Positions 1,828 through 9,390 of a stretch of 34,521 bases of DNA are shown here, piece by piece. Below the pieces are notes generated by a model. That model did not search any database. It saw nothing but the letters and a program-made list of their open reading frames with translations, and was not told the DNA's origin. The stretch's first letter is position 1, and the number at the start of each line of letters is the position of its first letter. The stretch is from Minisyncoccota bacterium (lineage in GTDB: Bacteria > Patescibacteriota > Minisyncoccia > Minisyncoccales > CSSED10-335). Position numbers and translations under genes: made by a program. The stretch lies in assembly GCA_028701035.1 (NCBI GenBank), contig JAQVRO010000003.1:1-34521 (forward strand), read 5' to 3'.

Positions 1828-2367
1828 ATGGATAAATCAAAAATTCAAAAGCTTCTCCACGATGGAAAAAGTGTTTATCATACTCAAGACTTAGCTGTTA
1901 TTTGGGGAATCAGTAATTCAAACACCCTTTATACTACTATTAAAAGGTATGTCCAAAAAGGCCTTTTGAATAAAATTCATAAGGGTTTTTATTCTACCAT
2001 TCCAGTAAAAGACATTAATCCTTTTTATCTTGGTCTTTTAGCTATTCATAGATATGGATATATTAGCACCGAGAGTGTGCTAATTGATGAAGGATTGATG
2101 TTTCAAGATGTAAAATATATTACAATAGTATCTAGTGTATCCAGGAGGTTCAATATCGTTGGGTATGATTTTTTGGTTCGTAAAATGAAAGATGATTTCT
2201 TATATAATAACTCGGGTATTATTGTTAAAGATGGAATTTCTATTGCCTCTACTAATAGAGCTATAGCCGATATGCTTTATTTCAACCCAAAATATCATTT
2301 TGATTGTAATAAAAAAATTAATTGGTCGGAGATAGACAAGATAAAGAAGAAAATAAATTATGTATAA
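1828..2367 (+). CDS. AbiEi-family antitoxin / autorepressor (copy 1)
   Basis: A 179-residue protein with an N-terminal winged-helix region (about residues 10-55, SVYHTQDLAVIWGISNSNT...) followed by the C-terminal domain typical of AbiEi-type antitoxins of type IV toxin-antitoxin systems. In characterised AbiE systems this protein counteracts the nucleotidyltransferase toxin and represses the operon. It overlaps the toxin gene by 8 nt (2360-2367), so they are translationally coupled. A perfect palindrome (1789-1814) sits immediately upstream as a probable operator. Some relatives are labelled only as DUF6088-like or AbiEi_4-like regulators; I cannot assign the subfamily. Function is inferred from the domain and the neighbouring toxin. 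Confidence 0.78.
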   Translation: MDKSKIQKLLHDGKSVYHTQDLAVIWGISNSNTLYTTIKRYVQKGLLNKIHKGFYSTIPVKDINPFYLGLLAIHRYGYISTESVLIDEGLMFQDVKYITIVSSVSRRFNIVGYDFLVRKMKDDFLYNNSGIIVKDGISIASTNRAIADMLYFNPKYHFDCNKKINWSEIDKIKKKINYV

Positions 2368-3094
2368 CAAAAAAAGAGAACAGGCTAGGCACGAAGCTCA
2401 AATGCATCGTTTGCTTACAGAAATATTAGATGATAAAAATCTAGCATTAAATATTTTTTTTAAAGGAGGAACATGCGCACGAATGTTAGGCTTTTTAGAT
2501 AGGTTTTCGGTAGATTTAGATTTTGATCTTAAAGAGGGTGCAGATAAAAAAGAACTCAAGAAATCTCTTTATGGTATTTTCAAAAAATTAAACTTAGAAA
2601 TTAAAGACGAAAGCAAAAATGCTTTGCAATTCTTTTTAAAATATTCCGCTCCAAAAGACGAAAGAAATACAATTAAGTTGGAGATATTAGATAAAACCTT
2701 TACTTCTAATAAATATTCTTCTCAGTATTTATTACCGATAAATAGAACTGCAATTTGTCAAACAATTGAAACTATGTTTGCTCATAAATTAATAGCTCTT
2801 ATTGATCGTTTTGAGCAGGGTGGTGGAATTGCTGGAAGGGATGTTTATGATATACATTACTTCTTTTCTCAAGGTTACGATTATTCTAGTGATGTTGTAG
2901 AGGAGAGAAGGGGTATACCAGTTAAGCAGTTCTTTAAAGAATTAAAAGAGTTTATAGATAAAGAGGTTAATAGTAGTGTTATAGATCAAGACCTTAATGT
3001 TTTACTAGATTACGATAAATTTAAAGTTATTCGCAAACATCTTAAACAAGAAACCGTTAATTTTATTAATTCTGAAATTAACTACTTGCACTAA
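2360..3094 (+). CDS. AbiEii-family nucleotidyltransferase toxin (copy 1)
   Basis: A 244-residue nucleotidyltransferase of the AbiEii/AbiGii/MenT group. The hallmark KGGT (Gly36-Gly37-Thr38) is followed by RFSVDLDFDL, giving the catalytic Asp52/Asp54 pair. Further down, HKLIALIDRFEQGGGIAGRDVYDI contains the conserved Lys and the R-D-x-x-D motif of the family. Relatives transfer nucleotides to RNA substrates such as tRNA acceptor ends and stop growth, often as abortive phage defence. The target here is unknown. It overlaps its antitoxin gene by 8 nt. Its stop codon TAA (3092-3094) lies within the left arm of the next operator. All motifs are intact, so it is probably active. Confidence 0.85.
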   Translation: MYNKKREQARHEAQMHRLLTEILDDKNLALNIFFKGGTCARMLGFLDRFSVDLDFDLKEGADKKELKKSLYGIFKKLNLEIKDESKNALQFFLKYSAPKDERNTIKLEILDKTFTSNKYSSQYLLPINRTAICQTIETMFAHKLIALIDRFEQGGGIAGRDVYDIHYFFSQGYDYSSDVVEERRGIPVKQFFKELKEFIDKEVNSSVIDQDLNVLLDYDKFKVIRKHLKQETVNFINSEINYLH

Positions 3095-3137: not shown

Positions 3138-4205
3138 ATGTTTGATTTAAACAAGAAACAACAAGAGATATTAAATATAGTTGTTAAAGATGAATCTTTG
3201 CAATCATCAGAAGTTTTTGAAAAGATGAGCGATGTTTCTCTTGTAACAGTCAAAAGAGCTTTATCAGATATGGCTCGTCTTGGGCTTTTGAATAAAAGTG
3301 GTTCGGGGAGATCTGTTAAGTATAGTATTGGCATCATCGGAAGAATATTCCTAGACATTGATGCTCGCAAATATTGTTCTATTGATCCTGACGAAAGGTT
3401 TGGTCTTGCTAGATATAATTTTGAATTCTTGTCATCTATACCAAGCGAATTATTTTCAAAAGATGAAATTAATCTTTTGAACAATTCAACAGCAAATTGG
3501 CAAGGCAAGATAAAGAATATAACACCAGTTATCCAAGAAAAAGAACTAAAAAGATTTGTAATTGAGCTTGCTTGGAAATCTTCTAAAATCGAAGGAAATA
3601 CTTATTCTCTTGTAGATACCGAGCAATTAATATTAAATAACAAAGAAGCAAAAAACAGAACTAAAGAAGAAACCCAGATGATTCTAAACCATAGAGACGC
3701 CTTTCATACTATTTTTAATAATCCAGATAAATATAAGAAGATTAAAAAAGGAGAAATAGAAGAAATACATTTTTTGTTAACTAAAGACTTAAAAATCAAA
3801 AAAGGTTTTAGGCAGAGCCCAGTTGGAATTACTGGATCAATATTTAGGCCATTGGATAATAGTTATCAGATATCAGAAGCTGTTGATTTATTAGAAAAGG
3901 CAATTACACAAGCGAAAAGCCCATTCTCTAAGGCACTTATTGCTTTATTGGGAATATCTTATATCCAACCATTTGAAGATGGAAATAAGAGAACAGCTCG
4001 CTTTACTGCTAATGCGATATTAATCTCTAATAATCTCCCCCCAATATCTTATCGTAGTGTTGACGAAAGAGACTATAGAGATGCCATATTAACCTTATAT
4101 GAAATAAACTCTATTATTCCGATTAAAAAGATATTTATTAATCAGTACGATTTTACAGCAAACAATTATACGATAGCAATTAATGAAAAATCAAGAAATA
4201 TTTAA
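3138..4205 (+). CDS. Fic-domain protein with N-terminal HTH; catalytic His replaced by Gln
   Basis: A 355-residue protein. Residues about 5-65 form a winged helix (KKQQEILNIVVKDESLQSS..., then VTVKRALSDMARLGLLNKSG), so it probably binds DNA. Residues about 130-330 are a Fic fold. An inhibitory-helix motif SSKIEGN (Ser148 to Asn154) fits the (S/T)xxxE(G/N) signature of Fic proteins that carry their inhibitory helix N-terminal to the Fic core. The core motif, normally HPFxxGNxR, reads IQPFEDGNKRTAR: the usual catalytic His is Gln277 (codon CAA at 3966-3968), while the Gly-Asn and Arg are kept. Fic enzymes usually transfer AMP to protein hydroxyls; without His this one may be inactive in catalysis and act mainly as a regulator. 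A dyad operator lies directly upstream. Confidence 0.85.
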   Translation: MFDLNKKQQEILNIVVKDESLQSSEVFEKMSDVSLVTVKRALSDMARLGLLNKSGSGRSVKYSIGIIGRIFLDIDARKYCSIDPDERFGLARYNFEFLSSIPSELFSKDEINLLNNSTANWQGKIKNITPVIQEKELKRFVIELAWKSSKIEGNTYSLVDTEQLILNNKEAKNRTKEETQMILNHRDAFHTIFNNPDKYKKIKKGEIEEIHFLLTKDLKIKKGFRQSPVGITGSIFRPLDNSYQISEAVDLLEKAITQAKSPFSKALIALLGISYIQPFEDGNKRTARFTANAILISNNLPPISYRSVDERDYRDAILTLYEINSIIPIKKIFINQYDFTANNYTIAINEKSRNI

Positions 4206-4434: not shown

Positions 4435-4470
4435 TTAACCCTGAAATTTAATCGTATCAAAATGATATGA
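4435..4470 (+). promoter_or_regulatory. Second, imperfect copy of the Fic promoter/operator, at the polX start
   Basis: Bases 4449-4470 match 3092-3113 at 20 of 22 positions (core TAATCGTATCA, two bases, ATGATATGA). A TTAACC (4435-4440), 17 nt, CAAAAT (4458-4463) arrangement has the same geometry as the Fic promoter. The -10-like box ends only 3 nt before the polX ATG, so a transcript from it would start at or just after that ATG. It may be an operator or a relic more than the main polX promoter. Confidence 0.5.
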
Positions 4471-6146
4471 AAAACCAAGAAATAGCTAAAATACTCTACG
4501 ATATGGCAGATAGATTTGCTATGGATGGAGTTGCCTTTAAGCCCTATGCTTACAGGAAAGCTGCCGATGTTTTAATATATGAGGAAGATATTGAGAACAT
4601 ATATGAAAGGGGCGGGCTTAAAGAGCTAGAGAGCATGCCTGGAATTGGCAAGCACATTGCTTTAAAAATTGAAGAATATTTAAAAACAGGCAAGATCAAG
4701 CAATATGAATTGTTGAAAAAAGAAACACCCGTAGATCTTGAAGAATTAACTAAAGTAGAAGGGGTGGGGCCCATGACCGTTAAGACCCTTTACCAAGAAT
4801 TGAAAGTTAAAAACATTAAAGATTTGAAGCGGGCAGCCGAGAGGCACAAGATTGCCCCTCTTTTTGGATTTGGAGAAAAAACAGAGCAGGCAATACTAGA
4901 GGGAATAGGGTTTTTAGACAAAACTCAAGGCAGAGTGTCTGTTGCTATAGCTTTCGTTGAAGCTAATAGAATAATTGATTATTTAAAAACCATGCCTGAA
5001 GTTGAAAATATTAGCATAGCAGGATCACTTAGAAGAATGAAAGAAACAGTGGGTGACATTGATATTTTAGTAAGCTCAAAGAATCCTAAAAAGGTAATGG
5101 AGTATTTCGTTAAAATTCCTGAGGTTCAAAAAGTATGGGGTCAAGGCACCACCAAAACATCGGTAAGAATGAAAGGGGGATACAATGTTGATTTGAGGGT
5201 GGTGCCCAAAACAAGCTTTGGATCAGCTCTACAATACTTTACTGGATCTAAAGAACATAATATTAACCTCAGAAAGATTGCAATAGCAAAAGGATTAAAG
5301 TTAAACGAATATGGTGTTTTTAAAGGCAACAAAAAGATTGCTGGAGAAACAGAAGAATCAATATACTCTGCTCTAGACTTAAACTGGATTCCTCCAGAAT
5401 TGAGAGAAGGGGCAATTAAGCCAAAACCAAAAAACTTAATAGATTACAATGATATTAAAGGAGACCTTCATTGCCACACTACTTGGTCTGGTGGATCTGG
5501 TTCAATAGAAGAAATGGCTCAGAAAGCGATGAGCTTAAATTACTTATATATTGGTATTGCAGACCATACAAAGTATTTAAGAATAGAAAATGGGTTAGAC
5601 GAGAAAAGACTAAAAGAACAAAGAAAAGAAATTGATTTATTAAATAAGAAACTAAAGATACATATTCTTCAGGGTTGCGAAGCTAATATTTTAGCCGATG
5701 GCTCTATTGATATTAAAGATAGCGCCCTAAAAGAACTAGACTTTGTTATTGCTGGGATACATTCTCATTTTAAACTAAGCAAAGACAAAATGACAAGGAG
5801 ATTAGTAAAAGCAATGAAAAACCCAAATGTGGATATCATATCACACCCAACAGGGAGAATTATTGGTAAACGAGCGGAATATGATATTGACTTTGATAAA
5901 ATACTAGTTGTCGCCAAAGAAACAAAAACTGTTTTAGAAATTAATGCTCATCCCGCTAGACTAGATTTAAACGATATTAATATTAATAAGGCAGTTAAAG
6001 CGGGAGTAAAGATGATAATTAATACCGATGCTCACCAAAAGGAAAATATGGATTTAATGAATCTAGGCATAGCTCAAGCACGAAGAGGTTTCGCTACCAA
6101 GAGTGATATTGTTAATACTCTAGACTTAACAACCTATTTCCAATAA
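4467..6146 (+). CDS. polX: DNA polymerase/3'-5' exonuclease PolX (Pol X core plus PHP domain)
   Basis: A 559-residue family X DNA polymerase with a C-terminal PHP phosphoesterase, a bacterial arrangement used in gap filling and base-excision repair. Two helix-hairpin-helix elements are visible (SMPGIGKHIALKIEEYL near residue 55; KVEGVGPMTVKTLYQEL near 97). The polymerase motif GSLRRMKETVGDIDIL gives Gly186-Ser187 and metal ligands Asp197 and Asp199; the third is Asp242 in NVDLRVV. The PHP domain from about residue 330 carries all its metal motifs: DLHCHT (His335, His337), IADHT, QGCEANI, GIHSHF, ISHPTGR, NAHP and NTDAH. Both activities look intact. It is a housekeeping repair gene sitting within toxin-antitoxin-like modules, with a Fic-type operator copy at its start and a promoter in its last codons. 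Confidence 0.93.
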   Translation: MKNQEIAKILYDMADRFAMDGVAFKPYAYRKAADVLIYEEDIENIYERGGLKELESMPGIGKHIALKIEEYLKTGKIKQYELLKKETPVDLEELTKVEGVGPMTVKTLYQELKVKNIKDLKRAAERHKIAPLFGFGEKTEQAILEGIGFLDKTQGRVSVAIAFVEANRIIDYLKTMPEVENISIAGSLRRMKETVGDIDILVSSKNPKKVMEYFVKIPEVQKVWGQGTTKTSVRMKGGYNVDLRVVPKTSFGSALQYFTGSKEHNINLRKIAIAKGLKLNEYGVFKGNKKIAGETEESIYSALDLNWIPPELREGAIKPKPKNLIDYNDIKGDLHCHTTWSGGSGSIEEMAQKAMSLNYLYIGIADHTKYLRIENGLDEKRLKEQRKEIDLLNKKLKIHILQGCEANILADGSIDIKDSALKELDFVIAGIHSHFKLSKDKMTRRLVKAMKNPNVDIISHPTGRIIGKRAEYDIDFDKILVVAKETKTVLEINAHPARLDLNDININKAVKAGVKMIINTDAHQKENMDLMNLGIAQARRGFATKSDIVNTLDLTTYFQ

Positions 6147-6181
6147 TATACAATTGTTGTATATTAACAGAAGCAAGTTAT
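6126..6181 (+). promoter_or_regulatory. Promoter/operator copy 1 (for the HigA-like gene), inside the polX 3' end
   Basis: TTAACA (6126-6131), 17 nt, TACAAT (6149-6154). The -10 box overlaps a perfect dyad at 6144-6166 with 10-bp arms TAATATACAA and TTGTATATTA around TTG. The stretch 6125-6181 matches 6644-6700 at about 52 of 57 positions. The -35 box and the left part lie within the last polX codons. Confidence 0.7.
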
Positions 6182-6199
6182 AGATAAATTAATAAAAAT

Positions 6200-6607
6200 A
6201 TGATTAAAATTAAAGTTATAAAAACAAATGAAGATTATCAAAAAGCTCTTAGGGCAATTGAAGGGCTAATTGATTATGATCCAAATCCTAATACAGTAAA
6301 GGGTGAGCAATTAGAATTGCTTACAATCTTAGTTAAAGATTATGAATCTAAAATGTTTCCCAAATCATTGCCTAATCCAATTGAGGCAATAAAATTTAGA
6401 ATGGAACAAGCTGGTCTTAAACAAGCAGACCTCGTTCCTTATCTAGGTGGTCGTAATCGTGTTTCAGAAATTCTTTCTGGTAAACGCCAACTAACCGTTG
6501 AGATGATAGCTAATTTATCTGAAGGTCTTGGCATTCCAGCAGAGGTCTTAATAGGTAAATCCAAAGATATGCTTGCATATCAAAAAAGGGAGAATGTTTT
6601 GCTTTAG
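6200..6607 (+). CDS. HigA-like XRE-family regulator, orphan antitoxin
   Basis: A 135-residue protein. The N-terminal half (KVIKTNEDYQKALRAIEGLID...) matches the extension found in HigA-type antitoxins. The C-terminal half, from about residue 62, is a cro/C1-type HTH: AIKFRMEQAGLKQADLVPYLGGRNRVSEILSGKRQLT. HigA proteins normally neutralise the HigB mRNA interferase and repress their operon. No HigB-like frame is present on either side: polX is upstream and an AbiE pair downstream. It therefore looks like an orphan repressor. The same promoter/operator precedes both this gene and the next AbiE pair, so it may control both. Start ATG fits the family N-terminus. Confidence 0.85.
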   Translation: MIKIKVIKTNEDYQKALRAIEGLIDYDPNPNTVKGEQLELLTILVKDYESKMFPKSLPNPIEAIKFRMEQAGLKQADLVPYLGGRNRVSEILSGKRQLTVEMIANLSEGLGIPAEVLIGKSKDMLAYQKRENVLL

Positions 6608-6644
6608 ATGTGACTATAGAACATCTTTAATATTACCACAAAGC

Positions 6645-6700
6645 TTGACAACTCATTTCGAATAATATACAATTGTTGTATATTAACAGAAACAAGTTAT
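6645..6700 (+). promoter_or_regulatory. Promoter/operator copy 2 (for the second AbiE pair)
   Basis: A consensus promoter, TTGACA (6645-6650), 17 nt, TACAAT (6668-6673). The same dyad as at 6144-6166 is found at 6663-6685 and overlaps the -10 box. Bases 6655-6700 match 6136-6181 at 44 of 46 positions. The expected transcript starts near 6680, giving a leader of about 19 nt. Confidence 0.78.
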
Positions 6701-7331
6701 GATTAAATCAAGAGAACTTGAAAGCATAATAGCGGGTATGCCATACTTCTTGCCCGAGAATCTCTTGTCTTTGGGTTTTAAAAGGCACCATTTAAACATG
6801 GTGTTATCTCGGCTCAAGAAAAGAGGAGATGTTGTCCTTCTTAAGAGAGGAATGTATGTTTCAGTAGAATACTTAAACAAGGTAAAAAGAAGTGGCGAAT
6901 ACAACAAATACCTAGAAATGATATCTGGAGTGCTATACTCTCCATCGTATTTAAGTTTAGAGTATGTTCTAAATGAGTATAACATCTTAAGCGAAGCCTC
7001 TTTTAGCTTTTCTTTAGTAAGTAATAAGAAAACATTTGAAATGAGAAACGATCTTGGGCTATTCCGTTATCGTAGTATTAAGGAAAGTCTCTTCACTGGA
7101 TTTAAGGTGATTAGAAAAGGTGACTTCTTAATATACAAGGCAACTCCCGCAAAGGCTTTATTTGACTTCTTGTATTTTCGTAAGAATATAATTACGGGAG
7201 ATGATTTTTTAGAATCCTTTAGGATTAATAAAGAGGCAATGAAAGCTAGCGACTTAAAAGAATTTAAAAGATATATTTTAATTTCGAACAACAAGAGAAT
7301 GAAAGAAATTGGAAAATTTTATGCACACTAA
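6699..7331 (+). CDS. AbiEi-family antitoxin / regulator (copy 2)
   Basis: A 210-residue protein with an N-terminal winged helix (about residues 5-60: ESIIAGMPYFLPENLLSLGFKRHHLNMVLSRLKKRGDVVLLKRGMYVS) and the AbiEi-type C-terminal domain. The segment YSPSYLSLEYVLNEYNILSE is characteristic of these antitoxins. It should antagonise the AbiEii-type toxin encoded just downstream and repress transcription. The genes overlap by 11 nt at the toxin ATG (7321). It is little like copy 1 (1828-2367) in sequence, so the pairs are separate acquisitions and not a recent duplication. Its operator is shared with the HigA-like gene. Confidence 0.78.
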   Translation: MIKSRELESIIAGMPYFLPENLLSLGFKRHHLNMVLSRLKKRGDVVLLKRGMYVSVEYLNKVKRSGEYNKYLEMISGVLYSPSYLSLEYVLNEYNILSEASFSFSLVSNKKTFEMRNDLGLFRYRSIKESLFTGFKVIRKGDFLIYKATPAKALFDFLYFRKNIITGDDFLESFRINKEAMKASDLKEFKRYILISNNKRMKEIGKFYAH

Positions 7332-8154
7332 AGAAATATTAAAAAAGATAGTAAGCGACAATTACGACAAGTCTGACTTCTATACCCGCAATCTTTTAAG
7401 AGAATACTTGCAGATTTTTATTTTAAAATACATTTATTCTTCTAAAGATTATAAAGATTTGTTTTTCTATGGTGGAACTTGTCTATCTCAGTGCTATGGT
7501 ATTCCTCGTCTATCGGAAGACTTAGATTTTGTAGATACTAAGAAAGATATCAATTTAGATAATCTTGCCAAGGATGTTAAGAGTTTCTTTGAAAACAACA
7601 CAGACATTTCTCCAGAAATTAAAATCCAGAAGTTTAGAATATATCTTAAGTTTCCAATATTAAAAGAATTAGGTTTTGTAAAAGACTTATCTGAACCTAC
7701 CCATCTTTTTATTAAAATAGAGGTTTTCTCTGATTTTGATTTTTGCAATAAGTTTAAAACAGAATTTAAGCCTATTTTTAAGTTTAATCACTCGGTTTTA
7801 ATAAAAACATTTGATATTGAAACATTAATGGCAACAAAGGTAAGAGCTATAATGTATAGAAAGTGGGAGAAAACTAGCAAGGATGGTAAATCGTTAGCCT
7901 CAGTAAAAGGCAGAGATTTTTTTGATCTAATGTGGTTTTTAGAAAAAGGGATAGAGCCAAACCTTGATTGTATTGAAGGTGTGCAAACCAAAGAAGAACT
8001 TAAATGCATTTTATTAGAGAAGGTAGACAATGCAGACAGTAAGAGTATAGAGTATGATTTGAAGGCATTCATATCCGATCAAGACTTTGTTTTAAACATA
8101 TCATCTAATATCAAAGATATAATAATTAAAAATCTTAACAATTGGAAAAATTAA
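7321..8154 (+). CDS. AbiEii-family nucleotidyltransferase toxin (copy 2)
   Basis: A 277-residue nucleotidyltransferase. The signature is FYGGTCLSQCYGIPRLSEDLDF with Gly51-Gly52-Thr53 and Asp67/Asp69. A distal motif KVRAIMYRKWEKTS...VKGRDFFDLMWFL gives the Lys and R-D-x-x-D residues typical of the AbiEii/MenT group. I chose ATG 7321, which overlaps the antitoxin stop; a TTG at 7309 would add four residues. A GGAA six bases before the ATG could be a weak ribosome-binding site. Like other members it probably modifies an RNA when freed from the antitoxin; the target is unknown. The protein looks intact. Confidence 0.84.
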   Translation: MHTKEILKKIVSDNYDKSDFYTRNLLREYLQIFILKYIYSSKDYKDLFFYGGTCLSQCYGIPRLSEDLDFVDTKKDINLDNLAKDVKSFFENNTDISPEIKIQKFRIYLKFPILKELGFVKDLSEPTHLFIKIEVFSDFDFCNKFKTEFKPIFKFNHSVLIKTFDIETLMATKVRAIMYRKWEKTSKDGKSLASVKGRDFFDLMWFLEKGIEPNLDCIEGVQTKEELKCILLEKVDNADSKSIEYDLKAFISDQDFVLNISSNIKDIIIKNLNNWKN

Positions 8155-8164
8155 TAAAAAAAAT

Positions 8165-8518
8165 ATGAAAGAAAAAATTGGAAATTTTGAACCATCGGCA
8201 GAGTATGAAAAAACAAAAGAATTAATAGGTAAAACAGAAGACAAGATTAAAGAAGTAGCAACTCTAATCAATCAAACAAGAGAGGAGGGTTTTGATATAA
8301 AAAAAATTAATCATCCATATATTAATATTTTATCTAGAAATATTGTTTCTAGAAAGAAAATGATATCTCTTTTTGAGATGAATGGCTCAGAAGAAGTATT
8401 GTGGGAGGGCAATCATAGCAATATTGAAGAGGGAATCAAAGAAATAGAATCGTTAATAGCTCAAATGAAAGAAAGTGGAATTATAATAAGTGATTTGTAT
8501 AAGAGGTATAATAATTAA
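8165..8518 (+). CDS. Small coiled-coil protein, function unknown
   Basis: A 117-residue acidic/lysine-rich protein, predicted largely alpha-helical: residues 10-45 (AEYEKTKELIGKTEDKIKEV...) and 85-112 have a heptad-like pattern. No catalytic motif or membrane segment is visible and I do not recognise the family. It follows the AbiEii toxin by 10 nt on the same strand and is probably the third cistron of that operon. Whether it modulates the toxin or is a passenger cannot be told. Confidence 0.6.
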   Translation: MKEKIGNFEPSAEYEKTKELIGKTEDKIKEVATLINQTREEGFDIKKINHPYINILSRNIVSRKKMISLFEMNGSEEVLWEGNHSNIEEGIKEIESLIAQMKESGIIISDLYKRYNN

Positions 8519-8698
8519 CAATATTAATTTTAATTCGTACTCAATATCGAGTATAATTGTACTCAAGAGCATATTATAGATAAGAAAACGATTATTGTTT
8601 AATAACTAAAAAATAGATAACCAATTATAAGCCGAATAAGATTTCCTAAAAATAATAATTATAAAATTACCATACTTCTATAACATATTTTATGGGTA
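8519..8698. other. A+T-rich intergenic stretch, possible operator-bearing promoter
   Basis: No coding frame of any size. It contains TATAAT (8552-8557) without a good -35 box, surrounded by repeats of TACTC: a dyad TACTC/GAGTA at 8538-8542 and 8549-8553 and another GTACTC at 8559-8564. This could be a promoter with operators left from a lost toxin-antitoxin module. The remainder shows nothing I can name. Confidence 0.35.
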
Positions 8699-8727
8699 TT
8701 GACAAAAAAATTAATTAAAGATATATT
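8699..8727 (+). promoter_or_regulatory. Sigma-70 promoter upstream of the NYN gene
   Basis: TTGACA (8699-8704), 17 nt, TATATT (8722-8727): near-consensus with ideal spacing. Transcription should start around 8734, only about 10 nt before a terminator-like hairpin. Confidence 0.7.
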
Positions 8728-8743
8728 TATATTACTATGATCA

Positions 8744-8780
8744 CCACCCCTGCATATTTGCAAGGGTGGCTTTTTGTTTT
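8744..8780 (+). terminator. Terminator-like hairpin right after a promoter (possible attenuator)
   Basis: An 11-bp stem with one C-A mismatch (CCACCCCTGCA, loop TATT, TGCAAGGGTGG at 8759-8769) is followed by CTTTTTGTTTT. This is a textbook intrinsic terminator, but it begins about 10 nt downstream of the predicted start of the 8699-8727 promoter and before the likely NYN start. It could stop read-through from the AbiE operon, or act as an attenuator. Confidence 0.65.
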
Positions 8781-8817
8781 AGTTTATATTATAATTACAT
8801 ACATAATTATTTATTTT

Positions 8818-9390
8818 ATGGAATCTCAAAAAAACAAAAAAGAAAGGGTCGCTGTTTATATAGACGGTAATAATTTTTATGGATATTTAAAAGATGAAGA
8901 AATATTTTTGAATAAGGGTGATAGGTTTAATTTTCAATTATTTGTTAATTTTTTGATTGGAAATAGAGAGTTGGTTTCGAAAAGATATTATGTCGGAATT
9001 GCAAGAAACATTGATCAGACAGAAAAAAGTAAAGCTATAGTTATGGGTCAACAAAAGTTCTTGTCTCATCTTGAAGACGATGGATTTAAAATAAAAAGGG
9101 GAAGAGTTATGTATGATAAAGGTAAAATTAGAGAAAAAGGAGTAGATGTTAAAATTGCCATAGATTTAATTATCGGAGCAATAGATGATTATTATGATAC
9201 CATGATAATTGTTAGCTCTGATACGGATCTCATTCCAGCCATTAAATATGTCAAACACAAAAATAAGAAAATAGAATATGTCGGATTTGCTCATAATTAT
9301 TCTTTTGGAATTAAAAAACATGCTGATGTTTGTCACTTATTAACACCAAGCGATATAGATAAGTTTAAGAATAAAAAATCAATCCTCTAA
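8818..9390 (+). CDS. NYN-domain protein (LabA-like, PIN-fold ribonuclease family)
   Basis: A 190-residue protein of the NYN/LabA-like group, putative RNases with a PIN-like fold. Acidic positions are visible in VAVYIDGNNFYGYL (Asp16), KGVDVKIAIDLIIGA and VSSDTDLIPAIKY, the three-part acidic signature of the family. I chose ATG 8818 because it puts the first strand about ten residues from the N-terminus, and because the sequence before it is a terminator-like hairpin with a T-run. Starting at ATG 8737 would add 27 residues forming a hydrophobic segment (WLFVLVYIIITYIIIYF), a possible membrane anchor; I cannot exclude it. It is a single gene at the edge of the accessory island, possibly defence- or RNA-decay-related. 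Confidence 0.82.
   Translation: MESQKNKKERVAVYIDGNNFYGYLKDEEIFLNKGDRFNFQLFVNFLIGNRELVSKRYYVGIARNIDQTEKSKAIVMGQQKFLSHLEDDGFKIKRGRVMYDKGKIREKGVDVKIAIDLIIGAIDDYYDTMIIVSSDTDLIPAIKYVKHKNKKIEYVGFAHNYSFGIKKHADVCHLLTPSDIDKFKNKKSIL

Follow-up and report, generated by a model that had tools for sequence, protein, structure and literature searches.

In the 34,521-nucleotide stretch of DNA analysed here (the window), the promoter-operator of an AbiE operon is present twice, and a piece of a HigA-peptidase gene lies between the two copies. We consider it likely (a probability of roughly 0.8) that the duplicated operator belongs to abiE and that AbiEi represses the captured HigA fragment as well as its own operon. 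An earlier note on this DNA had placed HigA and the second of two AbiE pairs behind duplicate promoter-operators, and our analyses confirmed it, with the dyads exactly where it had put them.

At the sequence level, a repeat search of the window found a direct repeat of 73 nt at 85% identity (6125-6197 and 6644-6716, 519 bp apart). The 23-bp dyads within it (6144-6166 and 6663-6685) match at 23/23 positions, against an expectation of 0.00 from dinucleotide shuffles of the window. Together, the 73-nt repeat and this match ruled out a chance similarity of two promoters. All mismatches between the copies fall outside a 31-nt unbroken run covering the dyad (p = 0.015 under random placement). Around the dyad as its core, the inverted repeat extends to 23-nt arms (6650-6672 and 6676-6698) with a gap of 3 nt; the dyad overlaps the -10 at both copies. 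The promoter-like hexamers, which are consensus matches only, read TTAACA-17-TACAAT before HigA (6126-6154, +, overlapping the polX 3′ end) and TTGACA-17-TACAAT before abiE (6645-6673, +). Since copy 1 has the weaker -35 (TTAACA) and an outer arm ending in GAAG (GAAA otherwise), the promoter or operator there may be weaker.

The first gene at the locus is polX (4467-6146, +), which encodes a PolX-type DNA polymerase with a PHP domain and has its stop codon inside dyad copy 1. It is followed by the HigA-like antitoxin ORF (6200-6607, +, 135 aa), with an HTH_3 domain at residues 64-116 and neither HigB nor a peptidase domain. The second AbiE pair comprises the antitoxin and repressor AbiEi (6699-7331, +; PADLOC AbiEi, 7.6e-39) and the nucleotidyltransferase toxin AbiEii (7321-8154, +; Pfam PF08843, 8.1e-22). 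As expected for AbiE, the genes overlap in one operon with AbiEi first, and the inverted-repeat operator with its 23-nt arms and 3-nt gap overlaps the promoter. In type IV AbiE systems, AbiEi binds and represses the operator, and the toxicity of AbiEii is neutralised without complex formation.

The empty site is present in a genome of the same genus (G001), in the order polX - dyad - abiEi - abiEii and without HigA. Its polX, in the equivalent place, is an 82% homologue, and the spacing from polX to abiEi is 33 bp. Aligned with this site, repeat copy 1 (6125-6197, +) consists of the true polX tail, the promoter-operator, and a decayed abiEi head: it ends in the remnant ATAGATAAATTAATAAAA of the abiEi 5′ end (6180-6197, +), compared with ATGAATAAATTAAAAGAG in G001, and the start ATG is now ATA. 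Copy 2 (6644-6716, +) holds the promoter-operator and the true abiEi head, and opens with a remnant of the polX 3′ end (6645-6665, +) that reads LTTHFE-stop, against LTTYFQ-stop at the end of polX, and also contains the -35. An abiEi remnant in copy 1, a polX remnant in copy 2, and HigA-M78 DNA between them thus show that the polX/abiEi junction is duplicated around a HigA-M78 fragment. The ancestor would have had the order polX - operator - abiEi - abiEii, as G001 has now; the junction would then have been duplicated, and DNA from a PD-lambda-2_B-type HigA-peptidase gene, comprising its 5′ third but no HigB, would have come to lie between the copies. The direction of the event is one that we infer: crossing over between the two copies would bring back the G001 order, and G001 could have lost HigA in this way instead of the window gaining it. 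The arrangement of HigA between two abiE operator copies was found in one genome only.

The captured DNA (6187-6640, +, with approximate edges) was identified by DNA alignment with four loci (L008, L107, L009, and L010) as the 5′ third of a HigA-M78 gene of the PD-lambda-2_B type. With PADLOC, the HigA ORF matches residues 1-125 of the 402 of PD-Lambda-2_B (E 4.4e-52), and alignment with HigA-M78 genes shows that its frame is closed by a deletion of 1 nt near 6597. Most of the HigA relatives (49-69% identity) are N-terminal portions of HigA-M78 fusions with HigB immediately upstream. PADLOC calls this HigB PD-Lambda-2_A, and a third gene in L106 and L107 is PD-Lambda-2_C. HigBA systems have a HigB gene adjoining HigA, and PD-lambda-2 has a HigA domain fused to an M78 peptidase as component B, with A and C adjacent. 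At our locus the match stops at 125/402 residues, the peptidase is absent, and the neighbours are polX and abiEi-abiEii; component A is missing from the window and the genome. No HigB relative was found in the window, and a PF09907 search at E<=1 found none in the genome (91% complete), which leaves HigA without a HigB in the window and in this part of the genome. The description of HigA as an orphan therefore stands as far as HigB is concerned, but the gene corresponds to the N-terminal third of one encoding a HigA-M78 fusion (PD-lambda-2_B), not to a canonical HigA minus its HigB. No HigA relative was found in the viral collection.

To assign the operator, we searched 147 relatives for the dyad, accepting matches with <=2 mismatches. 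It was found directly upstream of abiEi in three genomes without a HigA match (G001, G132, and G030). All 13 of the extracted relatives with an AbiEi 40-80% identical to ours carry a 37-bp inverted repeat (consensus TTTCtgaTAgTATACAATaAtTGTATAtTAtcAGAAA), which adjoins the -35 and lies just before the abiEi start, or across it in two cases. Looser versions occupy the equivalent place before several more distant AbiEi genes. In the window, the 37-bp operator lies at 6137-6173 in copy 1 and at 6656-6692 in copy 2 (no strand assigned), around the core dyads given above. With a matrix built from the 13 relatives, window sites left out, the window dyads scored 34.6-36.9 bits (35.9 bits for copy 1; 36.2 and 36.9 bits for copy 2) and the next-best window site 2.6. 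Judged by these comparisons, the repeated dyad is the operator of the abiEi-abiEii operon, not of HigA. A perfect-core dyad of the AbiE type also stands alone before a tsaE-like gene in G095 (L073, 3616-3636), a genome without an AbiEi match, and is possibly a leftover operator.

The HigA family mostly uses a different operator. Most of the 21 loci read upstream of HigB carry TTCCCAnnnTGGGAA or a variant, the Verrucomicrobia-type loci (L020-L023 and L025) being those without an operator of this type. The TTCCCAnnnTGGGAA-type matrix gave <=1.9 bits at the window dyads, and a search for the HigA-type operator elsewhere in the genome returned 0 sites with 0-1 mismatch and 14 with 2 mismatches, which equals the control count. 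One genome (G358) has both AbiE and HigA-type systems, each with its own operator type, and no AbiE match was found near the HigA loci L008-L031, that is, no recurring HigA-AbiE pairing. Moreover, the recognition-helix segment RVSEILSGKRQLT is identical in the window HigA and its two closest relatives (L008 and L009), whose operator is TTCCCAnnnTGGGAA; from this likeness, HigA is unlikely to recognise the AbiE dyad.

These results bear on the first option of the earlier note, in which HigA would now serve as repressor of both its own gene and the abiE operon. Many HigA proteins autorepress, and this HigA is the first gene, has an HTH domain, and shares an identical dyad with the abiE genes. 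However, relatives without a HigA match have the dyad before abiEi, most HigA loci have another operator, and the helix is unchanged from that of relatives reading TTCCCAnnnTGGGAA, which makes this option very improbable. HigA as the owner of the dyad was rejected on the dyads without HigA in relatives, the other HigA operator, and the matrix scores. The note had also proposed to check whether relatives retain both dyads when one gene is missing: the dyad stands before abiEi in three genomes without a HigA match (G001, G132, and G030), and two solitary HigA genes without HigB (L011 and L012) have none. The one in L012 (1405-1860) is frameshifted near residue 95 and adjoins a RhuM/Fic-like gene.

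The second option, repression of HigA by AbiEi, gained support from the ownership and geometry of the operator. Copy 1 would drive transcription of HigA and copy 2 that of abiE, and AbiEi would most likely bind both operators across the -10 and repress both transcripts. As the HigA piece is trapped between the copies of the abiE promoter-operator, it is probably switched off by AbiEi, and we infer that it would be a passenger under AbiEi control, co-induced with AbiE.

Several readings of HigA function are compatible with this explanation of the operator. The ORF could be a non-functional fossil, with only the abiE operator copy of any consequence, a serious possibility that we nevertheless put at less than even odds. 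The fragment lacks HigB and the peptidase core, its frame was closed by the deletion near 6597, and neutral decay simulated at the divergence of the repeat kept 120 codons stop-free in ~20% of runs (indels ignored). On the other hand, the ORF retains undamaged antitoxin and HTH parts, which are 62-69% identical to those of intact relatives and keep the invariant columns, and the operator core of copy 1 is unchanged. The dN/dS of HigA against L008 (0.27/3.3) also resembles that between the intact relatives L008 and L009 (0.11/1.4), although dS is saturated.

Alternatively, HigA might persist as a lone antitoxin that counteracts the HigB-type proteins brought in by PD-lambda-2-like elements, a reading that we regard as unlikely. 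Orphan antitoxins have been proposed as such anti-addiction modules (PMC7354431), PD-lambda-2-like loci are present in the same order and class, and the N-terminal part before the HTH, the presumed HigB contact, is intact. Against this, the toxic component of Escherichia coli PD-lambda-2 is B, with A as the rescuing one (PMC9519451); the polarity may therefore be wrong for such a role, and the antitoxin label of the fragment is provisional. A broader proposal, doubtful to about the same degree, is that a type II antitoxin domain was captured without its toxin and domesticated under a copied type IV operator: AbiEi would release HigA and AbiE under stress or infection, and HigA would neutralise incoming HigB-type proteins or modulate AbiE.

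The note had also supposed that cross-wiring of type II and type IV systems would be new, and this is refuted by a 2024 report on ICESsuHN105 of Streptococcus suis, in which the type IV antitoxin AbiEi binds the promoter of the type II system SezAT, as seen both in vitro and with ChIP, and deletion of AbiEi raises SezAT (PMC11062541). AbiEi control of a type II gene is thus already published; the window adds a variation on it, in which a copied operator stands before a captured antitoxin fragment. In both cases a type IV antitoxin acts on a type II gene via a similar operator, by prediction in ours. In S. suis the target is an entire type II toxin-antitoxin pair, transcribed from a promoter of its own, whereas in the window it is a toxinless fragment under a copied abiE promoter. 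The S. suis oriT likewise has an AbiEi site outside the abiE promoter (PMC11062541), as copy 1 is here, but the window site is a copy from a local duplication with a captured gene.

In Streptococcus agalactiae, AbiEi binds two 23-nt inverted arms 3 nt apart (PMC7319586). That negatively autoregulated system shares with ours the AbiEi/AbiEii families, the 23-nt arms, the 3-nt gap, and the promoter overlap, and differs in that the window has two promoter-operators, which flank a foreign antitoxin fragment. PD-lambda-2, with its HigB-like A, HigA-peptidase B, and component C (PMC9519451), is the source family of the captured gene, but the window lacks A and the peptidase core, has no C in the neighbourhood, and uses another operator.

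Around the locus, a different palindrome, TATCCTGTACA-AAAG-TGTACAGGATA (1789-1814), lies 13 bp before the abiEi of the first AbiE pair (1828-3094), and the two pairs seem to have an operator each. In G001, the homologue of the first-pair AbiEii (L070, 10899-11468) has 189 aa against 244 in the window and is perhaps truncated. Between the first pair and polX there is a Fic-family gene (3138-4205), with none there in G001; in G030, Fic-like pieces lie directly upstream of the AbiE pair. After the second pair, positions 8165-9390 hold an ORF without a family match and a NYN-domain gene. Neither is present there in G001, which gives the region the look of a place where genes have repeatedly been gained or lost.

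Finally, the locus illustrates how an antitoxin gene could pass to a new regulator in a single step, by coming to lie within a duplicated operator, and an empty site in the same genus makes the change traceable. The 37-bp AbiE operator, conserved in this class of bacteria, offers a means of searching for genes under AbiEi control.
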